Source of the DNA: Verrucomicrobiota bacterium
GTDB lineage: Bacteria > Verrucomicrobiota > Verrucomicrobiia > Chthoniobacterales > Terrimicrobiaceae
Length of the DNA stretch: 58,888 bases
Reading direction: 5' to 3'
Assembly (NCBI GenBank): GCA_026398275.1
Contig: JAPLTF010000044.1
Location: 1-58,888 of the forward strand
A model generated the notes under the pieces. The model worked only from the letters and a program-made list of their open reading frames with translations, did not search any database and had not been told where the DNA came from. Shown piece after piece: positions 4,582 to 56,288 of the stretch (positions within the stretch are counted from its first letter, which is position 1; each line of letters starts with the position of its first letter). A program made the translations under genes and the position numbers.

Positions 4582-7035
4582 TCAAGCCTGCCTTGACCGA
4601 CGGCGCAGGATTCCCAGCATTCCCAATCCTCCCGCAACCATAAGCAACGCCCAGGTGCCGGGCTCGGGAACGACGGTGATGACGCCGGTGGAGTAGAGAT
4701 TGCTGGTATCCCATGAATACCCGCCGCCGAGGTCTGTGCCGTTGATCGCGGAGAAACTTCCTGTCGTTGTCGTCCAGTCAAAGAGATCGACGCTATTCCC
4801 GTAGACGGCTGTGTATCCGGTGTTGTTCAAGGACAGAGTTCCGCCGAAGGCGAGCTGGCCGGTGACGACGACACGGTCGAACAGCCCCGCACCGATTCCG
4901 GTGATCTCCATCGTGGTATTCGAGGAGCTTGCGAGGGTGAGTCCGCTCGAGAACGCGAGTGTGCCCGGGCTGTTGCCGGGCTTCAGATCGCCGTTCACCG
5001 TGGTGAACCCGCCGACCGTGCCGTTACCGCCGAGCGTTCCGCCGGTTTGCACGGTGAGCGCGCTGGCTGCTGCCGTGGAGCCGTTGAGGAGCAGCGTTCC
5101 GGCGGTGATGGTGGTCGTGCCATTGTAGGTGTTGGTGCCGGAGAGGATCAGCGTGCCAGCGCCATTCTTGATCAAGCCCTGCGCGCCCTGAACGGAACCG
5201 CTGAAGGTGTCGGTGCCGGAGGTCTTGTTGATTGTCACGGTGCCGCCGGCACCATCGAGCACGCCCGCGCCGGTCAGCCCGGCGAAAGTGCGATTGATAT
5301 TGTTGGCCGCATAAGGTCCGGTCAGATTAACCGCAGCCCCCGAGTCAATTTGCAACCTGCTTTGGTTCGAGATCGCTCCAAGCCCGCCCAAGGTCAGTTG
5401 CCCGCTACTGATAACCGTCGCCCCCGTATAGGAGGAGTCCGTCCAGAGATAGGTTTCCCCTGTCCCCCCAACTGTCAATCCTGCCGTGCCGGCGAGCTTG
5501 ACCGCCAAAACGGCCGCATTGTTGGCAGTGAAATTACCGCCGCTGACGCTAATAGTCCCGAAGTTGTTGTTGTCAGTGGTCAGACTGCCACCGTTCACCG
5601 TCACATCTCCCGTGCGGGAAATTGTCAGACCGCTGTCGGTGTAGAGGGTAGCACCGGTGTTGACCGTGACCGCAGCGGTGGCGTTACCCAATCCCCCGGC
5701 CGAGTATACACTCAGGGTGCCGCCATTGATAGTCGTGTTGCCGGAATAGGTATTTGCGCCGCCGAGAGCTGCGTTGCCTGAGCCACTCTTGGTCAAGCCC
5801 GCAGTGCCGGCGAGCACAGCGCCGACCGAGCCTCCTTGGATGTCGTAGTCACTTCCACTCTTGCTGACCGTTCCGGTCTGTAGTGCGCCCCCGGAGATCG
5901 TCAAATTGCCGGAGCGGGTGATCGTGTTATTTTGCAGATTGACATATCCACCAGAGATCGTCAGGTCGCCCGAGGCTGCGCCCAAGGCGTTGGCGTTGTT
6001 AACGAAAAGTTGGTTTTGTCCATACCAACCCGTCGTGGCCGAGATCGTGGTGGCACCCGTGTAGGTGTTGTTGGAACTGATCCCCCCACCCCCGGTCACG
6101 TTCATCCCGCCGGTGCCCGATAGCGGCACATCGAGCAAACCGCCGCCAAACTGGAATGCGCCGCCGTTGTTGACGATGGAGCCGGTGCTGTCGCCGCTGA
6201 GGATCCTGGCATTCTCGTTGGTCATGGAGATGGTGCCGGTGCGGGTCTGCTGGTTCCGCAGATCGAGTATGCCCCCACCGGAGACTGTGACGGTCCCGTT
6301 GGTTGCGCCCAAAGTGCCGGCGCCAGTGACGAAGAGCGTGCCGCCAGTGACTTCCGTGCCGCCGGTGTGGGTATTTGCACCGCTCAGCGTCAAACCGCCA
6401 GTGCCGGCGTTTGAAGTCACCTTGCCGCTGCCCGTCAGCGCCGACGAGATCACCGAGTAGCCGGAGGCCGAACTGTAGTTCATGGCATTCGCCACGCTGG
6501 CGATCGGCGTCACCGAGACGGAGTCGTAGGCCGCGTAGGTGTTGTCGCTCCGAAGCCAGACCCCGATCGTCGTCGTGTCCGCAACAAAATCAACGGTGTA
6601 ACTCCCGAACACGGCATCACTCGGGTTGTAGTCGAAGCTGGCGGAGTTGTAGTTGCTGAGCGCGGCTTGCCGGAGCGACAGAAACCCGTTGGCGTTCCCT
6701 TGACCGGATTTGCTTCCAGCAAGAAATGTGAGCCGGTATGCATTGCCAGTCGTGACGGTGACGTCCTGCATGAGCAGGTTATACGTGCTACCACCTGCGT
6801 AGGAATAGTTGCCCGAAGCCGCGGACGTATTGGTGGGGCCGTTGGCGTTGATGCCGAACTGGCCCGCGGGTAGTACCCCAAAATTGCTCGTGGACCAACC
6901 GGTCAGTCCATTGGAGAAATTGCCGTTGGTGATGAGTTCCTGGCCGTTCGCCAAGACTGCGGTCGCGAGGGTGAGAGCAATGCTCAGGAGGGTAACCAAG
7001 CGAGGACGATTGATTAATTGGCTGGTTGTTTTCAT
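4582..7035 (-). CDS. Autotransporter-associated beta-strand-repeat protein with PEP-CTERM anchor
   Basis: The 817-residue protein begins with a signal peptide (MKTTSQLINRP, hydrophobic stretch, then ANGQ). Residues about 30-180 resemble a carbohydrate-binding jelly-roll (ELITNGNFSNGLTGW). Then come many beta-strand (PATR) repeats of the type GAGTLILSGTNTYNGTTTI. The C-terminus is a PEP-CTERM signal: VPEPGTWALL, a membrane helix, then RRRSRQA. PEP-CTERM proteins are sorted by exosortase to the outer surface. No autotransporter barrel is present. It probably acts as a surface fibre or glycan-binding stalk for the locus. The start at 7035 is chosen because the more upstream in-frame ATG at 7095 precedes the signal peptide. 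Confidence 0.85.
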   Translation of the reverse strand: MKTTSQLINRPRLVTLLSIALTLATAVLANGQELITNGNFSNGLTGWSTSNFGVLPAGQFGINANGPTNTSAASGNYSYAGGSTYNLLMQDVTVTTGNAYRLTFLAGSKSGQGNANGFLSLRQAALSNYNSASFDYNPSDAVFGSYTVDFVADTTTIGVWLRSDNTYAAYDSVSVTPIASVANAMNYSSASGYSVISSALTGSGKVTSNAGTGGLTLSGANTHTGGTEVTGGTLFVTGAGTLGATNGTVTVSGGGILDLRNQQTRTGTISMTNENARILSGDSTGSIVNNGGAFQFGGGLLDVPLSGTGGMNVTGGGGISSNNTYTGATTISATTGWYGQNQLFVNNANALGAASGDLTISGGYVNLQNNTITRSGNLTISGGALQTGTVSKSGSDYDIQGGSVGAVLAGTAGLTKSGSGNAALGGANTYSGNTTINGGTLSVYSAGGLGNATAAVTVNTGATLYTDSGLTISRTGDVTVNGGSLTTDNNNFGTISVSGGNFTANNAAVLAVKLAGTAGLTVGGTGETYLWTDSSYTGATVISSGQLTLGGLGAISNQSRLQIDSGAAVNLTGPYAANNINRTFAGLTGAGVLDGAGGTVTINKTSGTDTFSGSVQGAQGLIKNGAGTLILSGTNTYNGTTTITAGTLLLNGSTAAASALTVQTGGTLGGNGTVGGFTTVNGDLKPGNSPGTLAFSSGLTLASSSNTTMEITGIGAGLFDRVVVTGQLAFGGTLSLNNTGYTAVYGNSVDLFDWTTTTGSFSAINGTDLGGGYSWDTSNLYSTGVITVVPEPGTWALLMVAGGLGMLGILRRRSRQA

Positions 7036-7426
7036 AGGGTGGATTTTTGTGTGGGAGGTTGGATGGATTTCTCGAAGGATGAGTATAAGATACAAAATTT
7101 AAATAGTTTCGCGGGGATGATCTGGCCAAAAATCAACACAATCGTGCCAAGTATCGGAGCGGTCGGGGGCATCAAAAACGGGCTTTCATGGCTTTTTATA
7201 TAGGGGGAATGTTCCTATGAGTTTTCGTTTTGGTCTGCGTAAGAAAAAATAAGGAACATCCAGCAGGCGTCAACACACGATGCCGAATTTACAAAAAACA
7301 GAACGAAATCTTCAAATTGCTGGCCATTTTTAGCCATTTTTTATGGCAGCACGCGCATGCGCTCACAGGCAGAAGCAACGCACCCCCTCCCGCGCGATTG
7401 AAGGTCGTAGCCGGGTAATAGGACAG
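7036..7426. other. 391-bp intergenic region, AT-rich
   Basis: No gene is seen between the PEP-CTERM protein start and the GH95 stop. The stretch 7070-7330 is clearly richer in A+T than its surroundings and should carry the promoter of the leftward PEP-CTERM gene. It also contains motif copy 3. Confidence 0.6.
7279..7315 (+). promoter_or_regulatory. PUL-specific intergenic motif, copy 3
   Basis: It begins GATGCCGAATTTACAAAAAA and ends with ATCTTCAA. It is almost identical to copy 4 at 9883-9919. It lies 244 nt upstream of the PEP-CTERM gene start, in reverse orientation. Confidence 0.45.
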
Positions 7427-53898: not shown

Positions 53899-54756
53899 CT
53901 ATTCGGCTGCCGCCCGGGGGTGGGCGGATTCGTAGGCGCGCTTGAGACGCTCGATGGTGACGTGGGTATAGATTTGAGTGGTCGAGAGGCTGGCGTGGCC
54001 GAGGAGGGTCTGGACGCTGCGGAGGTCGGCCCCGTTGTCGAGGAGGTGGGTGGCGAAGCTGTGGCGGAGCTTGTGCGGGGAGAGGTTGGCGGGGAGTCCG
54101 GCCTGCACGAGGCGCGAGCGGATCATGTCCCAGATCGTTCTCGTGGACAGGCGGGCGCGGGATTTGTTGATGAAGAGCGGCCCGCTGTGCACGCGGGCGG
54201 CCTGGCGGTATTTTGAGATCGCCACGAGCGCGGGGCCGCCGATCGGGCAGACCCGTTCCTTCGCCCCTTTGCCGGTCACGCGGGCGGTCTCGCCGATCAC
54301 ATCGACATCGGAAACATCGAGCCCGCCGAGCTCCGAAAGCCGCATGCCGGTTGAATAAAACAGCTCGATGATCGCCGTGTCGCGCGCGGCCATCCACGCG
54401 GGAGCCTGCTGCTTTTTTTCCTGGGCGGCAGGCGTCTCGATCAGAGACTCAACCTGCCTGGCGCTCATGAACCGCGGGAGCTGCTTTTCCGCTTTCGGCA
54501 GCAGGACTTCGCGGAGGACATTCTTTTCGACAAAATTCCGCCTGAGCAGGAACGCATGGAACGCCCGCAGGGCCGAGAGCCTCAGTCGCACGCTCGACCG
54601 GGCCATGTCCCTTTTCATCATCTCGAGCATCCAGGCCCGGTAGTCGGCGGCGGACACCGAGGCCCACGATCGCGGCGGCCGGAATTTCCGGAACGCTTCG
54701 ATCGCGGTCCGGTAGGTGGTCACGGTCCGGGGGGAGGCATTTTGCTCGGCCTCCAA
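53899..54756 (-). CDS. Tyrosine recombinase XerC/XerD
   Basis: The protein has an N-terminal SAM-like DNA-binding domain and the catalytic set Arg in GMRLSELGGL, Lys in GKGAKER, HKLRHSFATHLL (His, Arg), LGHASLSTTQIYTHV (His, Tyr nucleophile). It probably resolves chromosome dimers. From TTG 54756 there are 285 residues; the frame is open back to the stop of the upstream DUF4912 gene at 54813, so about 20 more residues are possible from a non-ATG start. Either way, coupling to the DUF4912 gene is likely. Confidence 0.88.
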   Translation of the reverse strand: MEAEQNASPRTVTTYRTAIEAFRKFRPPRSWASVSAADYRAWMLEMMKRDMARSSVRLRLSALRAFHAFLLRRNFVEKNVLREVLLPKAEKQLPRFMSARQVESLIETPAAQEKKQQAPAWMAARDTAIIELFYSTGMRLSELGGLDVSDVDVIGETARVTGKGAKERVCPIGGPALVAISKYRQAARVHSGPLFINKSRARLSTRTIWDMIRSRLVQAGLPANLSPHKLRHSFATHLLDNGADLRSVQTLLGHASLSTTQIYTHVTIERLKRAYESAHPRAAAE

Positions 54757-54812: not shown

Positions 54813-56288
54813 TCAGACAGTCGCGCCCATCGGAACAGCGAGCGGTGGCTGTGCGGTGTGTCCGACCTCCCCGGTGCGGGCCGTGGCTCTTTCAAACCGG
54901 AGGGCGGCCGAACGGGTCTCTACACCGTCCGGGGAAGTCGCAACGATCGGGATCTCGTAGTTCCCGTCGGGGAAGACAAAGTGGAACCGGAACGATCCGT
55001 CCGGGGCCAGATCCACCGGCTTGCCATCGATCGTGACCTTCGCCTGCGGATGCGTGCCACCGTAGAAGATGACCTCGGCGTTGACGTGCATGAAGAATTC
55101 CCGCTTCGCCGATCCGAATGAGCCGGTATTTTCCGACCCGCCCCAGCTGCTGGTCTCCACATGGCTCCAGCTTGACTGCGCTGCCTGCGACCAGCTCGAC
55201 AATGCAGCCTGCGACCAGCTTGAGAGCGCGGCTCCGGACCATGAGGATGTTGCGGCCTGCAGCCAGCTCGAAAGGGCAGCGGCATTCCATGAGGATTCCG
55301 GGCCGGACGATTTCGCGGCCGCGAGCCAGCTCGACATCACCGCCGCACCCCATGAGGACTGCGCGGCTCCGCCCCAGCTGGTTTCTCCGGCTGCCGTCGA
55401 AGCTTGAACGGCCGCCGCCCAACTGGTGAGGGCTGCCGTGGCCCAGCTGGAAAGCGCGGCCGACGACCACGCTCCAGGCCCACCCAACGACGAGAACGCG
55501 CTGGAAAGGCTGCTCTCGGATGGCACCCAGGGAATTTTTGTGAGCAATTCGCTGGCTCCCCCGGAATGCAACCGCTCCTGTAGATGCTTGTGAATTCTTG
55601 AGCTCAGGTCCTCGGGGTTCATCGCCGTGTTGGAAAGTTCCTCCAGCAGGTCCTTTCCAAGGAGCGCCTCGAGGACGACCCTTTCATCCGGGCTGATCGC
55701 CGAATGGCCGCCCTCTCCCAGCACGAGCAGCTTGCCATCGCGCTGGAGCCTGCCGAGTGCCTGCAGAAGGTTTTCGCCCCCCTGGATCGTGGATTGAATA
55801 TTCTCCATGAGCTTTTGAAAGCTCAGGTGCAGCGGGATCGTGGCGTAGTTGAAATCATCCGACTCGGAGACCTTGTCCTTCGGCGTCCGGACCGTGATCG
55901 AGCGCGCGATCGCATGCCACTGGCTCCCCCGGTAATACCCGATCTCAACCGTGTATTCCGCCCCTGCGTTGTTGACCGGGATATACCAGTTCCGGGTTTC
56001 AAACGGCACCTCGATCTCGCTCTCGACCGCCTCCCCTTCGCCGGTGACGCGGAGAAAAGTTTTTCCGCCCGGGTGAAGGGAAATATCGATATCCCAGTAG
56101 GTGAAAAGCCAGTGCGGCTCCTGGGCAACGAGAAAAATCGAATCCGTTCCATACGAACGCGGCAGCTCGCCGAGATCCGCCATCGGAGGCAGGGCCTCAG
56201 GCTTCGCAACTGTGGAATTCCCTTTGGAAGAAGCTTGGGGCTTCTTCGACGGTTTCGAAACACCCTTACCGGCAGTGACTTTTTTCAT
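54813..56288 (-). CDS. DUF4912 domain protein with Ser-Ser-Trp octapeptide repeats
   Basis: The 491-residue protein starts MKKVTAGKGVSKPSKK (basic). Residues about 50-160 form DUF4912 (DSIFLVAQEPHWLFTYWDI). After a helical linker (about 180-280) comes a run of about 13 eight-residue units of the form SSWxxAAL (e.g. SSWSGAALSSWSQAALSSW), then a small Ig-like domain (about 400-470, FFMHVNAEVIFYGGTHPQAK) and a flexible end. DUF4912 is of unknown function. No signal peptide is visible. ATG 56288 is preferred; it is convergent-independent, divergent from htrA. Confidence 0.85.
   Translation of the reverse strand: MKKVTAGKGVSKPSKKPQASSKGNSTVAKPEALPPMADLGELPRSYGTDSIFLVAQEPHWLFTYWDIDISLHPGGKTFLRVTGEGEAVESEIEVPFETRNWYIPVNNAGAEYTVEIGYYRGSQWHAIARSITVRTPKDKVSESDDFNYATIPLHLSFQKLMENIQSTIQGGENLLQALGRLQRDGKLLVLGEGGHSAISPDERVVLEALLGKDLLEELSNTAMNPEDLSSRIHKHLQERLHSGGASELLTKIPWVPSESSLSSAFSSLGGPGAWSSAALSSWATAALTSWAAAVQASTAAGETSWGGAAQSSWGAAVMSSWLAAAKSSGPESSWNAAALSSWLQAATSSWSGAALSSWSQAALSSWSQAAQSSWSHVETSSWGGSENTGSFGSAKREFFMHVNAEVIFYGGTHPQAKVTIDGKPVDLAPDGSFRFHFVFPDGNYEIPIVATSPDGVETRSAALRFERATARTGEVGHTAQPPLAVPMGATV

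Follow-up and report, generated by a model that had tools for sequence, protein, structure and literature searches.

Why would a bacterial protein carry tryptophans roughly every eight residues along a serine- and alanine-rich stretch, and what does that protein do? The question is raised by one gene in the window, by which we mean the whole 58,888-nucleotide stretch of Verrucomicrobiota DNA analysed here. A sequence-only reading had reported a Ser-Ser-Trp octapeptide array in a DUF4912 protein at 54813-56288, an interval that is the whole gene (minus strand, 491 aa). The gene, its parts and its downstream neighbor are as follows.

54813-56288, minus strand: DUF4912 protein gene, a single open frame of 491 aa from ATG to stop
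55857-56153, minus strand: DUF4912 domain (aa 46-144), PF16258 with E 2.5e-19, modelled as an FnIII/Ig-like beta-sandwich, pLDDT ~82-94
55524-55853, minus strand: helical region (aa 146-255), modelled with moderate to low confidence
55104-55523, minus strand: Ser/Ala/Trp array (aa 256-395, 140 residues)
55128-55295, minus strand: most regular part of the array, seven unbroken octads (aa 332-387)
54864-55100, minus strand: C-terminal Ig-like beta-sandwich (aa 397-475), pLDDT ~84-92 over most of the domain, dN/dS 0.04
53899-54756, minus strand: XerC/D-type tyrosine recombinase gene (PF00589 and PF02899), directly downstream after a 56 bp gap

The DUF4912 identity holds, with PF16258 scoring 70.1 bits at aa 46-144 against a curated cut-off of 29.4, which places the protein in that Pfam family. 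The Ig-like end that had been proposed is likewise recovered, as a beta-sandwich in the model of the C-terminus; its match to TcaA_3rd_4th (PF22820) reaches 19 bits, below the curated cut-off of 27, and we do not assign it to that family. A Pfam search of the protein gave no match in the array and only sub-threshold matches elsewhere outside DUF4912. The N-terminal tail (aa 1-38) is basic, with 8 Lys and no Arg, and the protein has no obvious signal peptide. Foldseek and VIA-align put DUF4912 among fibronectin-III domains (aa 49-139, Z up to 9.3, rmsd 2.9, 89 residues aligned), a likeness of FnIII/Ig-like fold that says nothing on function. No solved structure related by sequence was found with either the single protein or a profile as query. 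A literature search on DUF4912 yielded nothing useful, with one unrelated mention only, and the function of the family is undescribed there.

The array consists of 41 Ser, 32 Ala, 13 Trp, 5 Glu and 2 Lys among its 140 residues, and contains neither Asp nor Arg. Its 13 Trp lie at aa 274-382 in steps of 8, 8, 15, 8, 8, 13, 8, 8, 8, 8, 8 and 8, such that 10 of the 12 steps are exactly eight residues. The Trp autocorrelation at lag 8 is 10, compared with a shuffle mean of 1.1, and was reached by none of 5000 shuffles; evenly spaced Trp in one open frame, far above chance, are thus really present. The proposed SSWxxAAL consensus is looser than it had seemed, as SSW occurs in 10 of 13 units (TSW in two, GAW in one) but the AAL end in only five. 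The seven unbroken octads read SSWNAAAL, SSWLQAAT, SSWSGAAL, SSWSQAAL, SSWSQAAQ, SSWSHVET and SSWGGSEN. The pattern is as rare as had been supposed: three consecutive Ser-Ser-Trp octads occur in the window's own genome only in this gene. A relaxed Ser-Ser-Trp DNA pattern also matches low-complexity DNA of the TGGAGC type at other places in the order; among the matches listed, those that read as Ser/Thr-Ser-Trp are at the DUF4912 locus. The 24-bp DNA periodicity exists but is weak, with Tandem Repeats Finder covering the array only in fragments (2.4 copies at 81% and 2.5 copies at 70%). A DNA-level function of this period was set aside, given that synonymous sites are near-saturated between species while Trp and Ser are retained.

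The exact eight-residue period speaks for an array folded as a repeat structure, be it a beta-solenoid, a Trp-ladder sheet or a helical bundle, with an aligned Trp surface. This idea also draws on a hydrophobic period of 4.0 that exceeds shuffles in L004 and L022, and on the Trp-rich strands of plant ESV1 and LESV, which can form a glucan-binding plane (PMC10219597). The window array's own 4.0 peak, however, stays within the shuffle limit, its octads are interrupted by the 13- and 15-residue steps, and homologous linkers show other spacings (5/7, 5/9 and 4). In the full-protein AlphaFold2 model, built with 25 sequences, DUF4912 and the C-terminal domain are confident sandwiches and most of the array has a pLDDT of ~30. 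Modelled alone with five close orthologues, the array forms low-confidence helices (mean pLDDT 45.6), and strands are absent from it in both models, whose pLDDT there is ~30-58 on shallow alignments. With no confident fold predicted for the array by AlphaFold, the stacked solenoid of the sequence-only reading finds no support. We regard a repeat fold of any of these kinds as quite improbable. The low array pLDDT, obtained with 6-25 sequences, is weak evidence of disorder, with which it agrees without proving it. A canonical coiled coil was set aside, because octads in an ideal helix would shift by 80 degrees from one unit to the next; a heptad-like period of 3.5 appears only in L051 and L054, two lineages with 28-residue units.

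The sequence comparisons show that the array is old. In the same-genus orthologue (L003/L032), it aligns with a single 8-residue gap at 77% identity and with 12/12 Trp retained. At the DNA level, orthologous units are 77% identical and paralogous units 53%, and synonymous divergence is saturated. The recent expansion that had been read from the DNA period therefore fails, save for one single unit: the most similar neighboring units, SSWSQAAL and SSWSQAAQ (79%), sit where L003 is one unit short. Unit number, proposed earlier as a point of comparison, thus differs in this orthologue by one unit gained or lost. Measured against L003/L032, dN/dS is ~0.11 for the array (at dS ~1.5), 0.09 for the DUF4912 domain and 0.04 for the Ig-like domain, indicating that purifying selection constrains the array to about the same degree as DUF4912. 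Across four relatives, Trp retention is 12/12, 13/13, 7/7 and 13/13, counts that the alignment itself somewhat favors; in L006, Trp is retained although array identity is only 57%.

The protein is encoded in 36 of the 39 genomes searched, the window's own included. We also considered 29 loci of public genomes; their labels are almost all Chthoniobacterales, Spartobacteria or other Verrucomicrobiota, and several of the loci belong to the same species as in the 39-genome set. The record L059 is titled Blastochloris sp., and its short-linker DUF4912 protein is of Verrucomicrobiota type; the genome may be mislabelled or mixed. Outside the order, the domain order is the same with a short linker such as SSGQWISSISSPFGASFGA, and sister-order members share the DUF4912 domain, the helical part, a short SSGQW..SS linker and the Ig-like end. 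Where other Verrucomicrobiota have a Ser-Ser-X linker of ~20-40 aa, in the window's order it is inflated to a repeat array, and a median of 278 residues separates the helical region from the Ig-like domain in Chthoniobacterales, compared with 119 outside. The array is one local form of this Ser-Ser-X linker, each Chthoniobacterales lineage having enlarged it with a unit of its own. SSWxxAAL octads occur in the window's family and a few other lineages of the order, while other linkers are built from SSWLASWPGAAES-like units (L041/L055), SSAGLSSAEF-like units (L042/L052/L057), ETSSAEVSSFG (L024/L050) or 28-residue units (L051/L053/L054). The sequence-only reading had asked whether relatives lack the array or shift it out of frame, and the answer depends on distance: genus and family keep it, and further out in the order other Ser-Ser units replace the octads. 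Trp content drops from 7-9% to 2% in some sister lineages, which have Leu/Phe/Ala units. Ser is held at ~22-34% in the inflated linkers while unit type changes, and Lys, Arg and Asp are low in most linkers (mostly 1-3% in Trp-octad lineages).

Such wide variation of unit type, length and spacing across the order is what one would predict of a plain flexible low-complexity spacer, in which the uncharged Ser/Ala composition matters and the Trp spacing simply follows from the duplication of units. The low predicted confidence of the array fits this account, as does the fact that a linker of 20-40 aa suffices in other orders. Against it stand the low dN/dS and the retention of Trp in every aligned case, L006 among them. 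In addition, one clade (L016, L018-L020, L046 and L047; also L021/L048) has cleanly lost the Ig-like domain and kept DUF4912, with the protein ending in a Ser/Trp-rich stretch; in L046, the xerC frame lies directly after this tail. Because the stretch is kept as a tail where there is no Ig-like domain to connect, it is more than a tether joining two domains, and we consider the plain spacer rather unlikely.

The strongest clue to function comes from genome context. Of 141 genomes of the class, 71 have both DUF4912 and the GH57 branching-enzyme C domain (PF09210) and 65 have neither; two have DUF4912 alone and three GH57 alone (Fisher p 8e-34, uncorrected for kinship, species not being independent; that both domain searches covered the same 141 genomes is taken from their identical handles and counts). 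Outside the order, whole-genome coordinates place GH57 immediately downstream of DUF4912 and on its strand in 44 of 56 genomes. In the window's own genome, the PF09210/GH57 gene is on another contig (G000:C12), unlinked to the DUF4912 gene, and Chthoniobacterales keep both genes though they are unlinked, with family f12 lacking both. This co-occurrence is our best functional evidence and points to alpha-glucan branching. It may also lend indirect encouragement to the glycan binding that the sequence-only reading had raised as one possibility. In two complete, strongly reduced 0.9 Mb genomes of the order (G030 and G062; loci L098 and L101), DUF4912 and GH57 sit ~6 kb apart and the linker is eroded.

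The immediate neighborhood of the gene tells another story. Of 59 Chthoniobacterales loci, 43 have a XerC/D-like gene next downstream in the same orientation and none has GH57. The other 43 loci show the reverse, with GH57 in 32 and xerC in a single locus that itself belongs to the order. The protein might then act in nucleic acid or chromosome processing and have nothing to do with glucans, a notion to which the Lys-rich N-terminal tail of the window protein and the N-terminal Rho_N domain (PF07498) of the sister-order DUF4912 proteins L069 and L081 would lend themselves; that domain is unexplained in a glucan-linked protein. XerC is near-universal, and for this reason its adjacency may be mere operon chance. 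Furthermore, outside the order there is no adjacent xerC, and the presence and absence of DUF4912 track GH57. We think a nucleic-acid role improbable.

We instead tentatively propose, with somewhat less than even confidence, that this is an accessory protein serving GH57-type alpha-glucan metabolism in the cytosol, with Trp stickers borne on a flexible, uncharged arm. It would be a non-enzymatic partner of alpha-glucan (glycogen-like) branching; we infer its location, and the glucan link from the co-occurrence with GH57. Two beta-sandwiches, the FnIII-like DUF4912 and the Ig-like end, would flank the helical part and a long Ser/Ala arm along which hydrophobic stickers, here Trp, recur at near-constant spacing. 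The arm would most likely be flexible or only transiently helical, making many weak contacts at once, either with glucan chains, where Trp would stack on the glucose units, or with the arms of other protein copies, and so may gather glucan, the protein itself or both into an assembly. A sticker role is suggested by the spacing, the selection on Trp, the lack of a confident fold and the persistence of the stretch without the Ig-like domain. Stacking on glucose would not be the general job of the linker, since sister lineages with the same GH57 partner have only 2% Trp. Two observations weigh against the glucan role: the conserved neighbor in Chthoniobacterales is xerC, not a glucan gene, and the predicted DUF4912 fold matches FnIII domains with no carbohydrate-binding module among them, an absence without force of proof in a match list filled by that one fold. 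A bolder idea, which we hold to be doubtful, is that the arm of Ser-Ser-Trp octads represents a new type of multivalent element for alpha-glucan binding or self-assembly, its recipe rewritten in each Chthoniobacterales lineage and its job kept.

Known systems with comparable repeats each resemble the array in part. Ice-nucleation proteins have Ser-containing octapeptide repeats with a Gly-Tyr-Gly-Ser-Thr-type motif. The array shares their eight-residue period and Ser, but has no Gly-Tyr-Gly-Ser-Thr-like octapeptide, no predicted beta-solenoid and no export signal that we could see. The GW/WG-repeat Argonaute hooks are flexible regions with spaced Trp, which may act as stickers in the array as well; the array differs in having Ser-Ser-Trp in place of Gly-Trp and a strict octad spacing. 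Plant ESV1 and LESV are Trp-rich starch proteins with regular Trp spacing that are tied to alpha-glucan metabolism, and their Trp-rich regions are rich in acidic residues and predicted to form a 16-strand sheet (PMC10219597). The array is similarly Trp-rich and regularly spaced, and the glucan link of the DUF4912 protein is here by analogy only; however, with only 5 Glu and not a single Asp among its 140 residues, and without strands in the predictions, it lacks acidic residues interleaved with aromatic strips. ESV1 and LESV may therefore serve as a working analogy, with no homology implied.

For a family without a described function, near one-to-one co-occurrence with GH57 would point to a role in the storage-glucan metabolism of bacteria that can be tested directly. 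The array could also be seen as a natural experiment in low-complexity evolution, where one protein slot holds Ser-Ser-Trp octads, Ser-Ser-Ala-Glu 14-mers or 28-mers depending on the family. With purifying selection detected in the family where it was measured, such comparisons could reveal which property of a repetitive arm is selected. Two other repetitive features lie in the window. At 4582-7095, an 837-aa protein has Gly/Thr/Asn-rich passenger-type repeats and a PEP-CTERM-like motif at its end. At the contig end (58452-58888), there is a CRISPR-like array in which a GC-rich repeat with the core TTTCAATCCGCGCCCCGCGATTGCTCGCGGGGCGAC occurs six times, at intervals of 71-72 bp.
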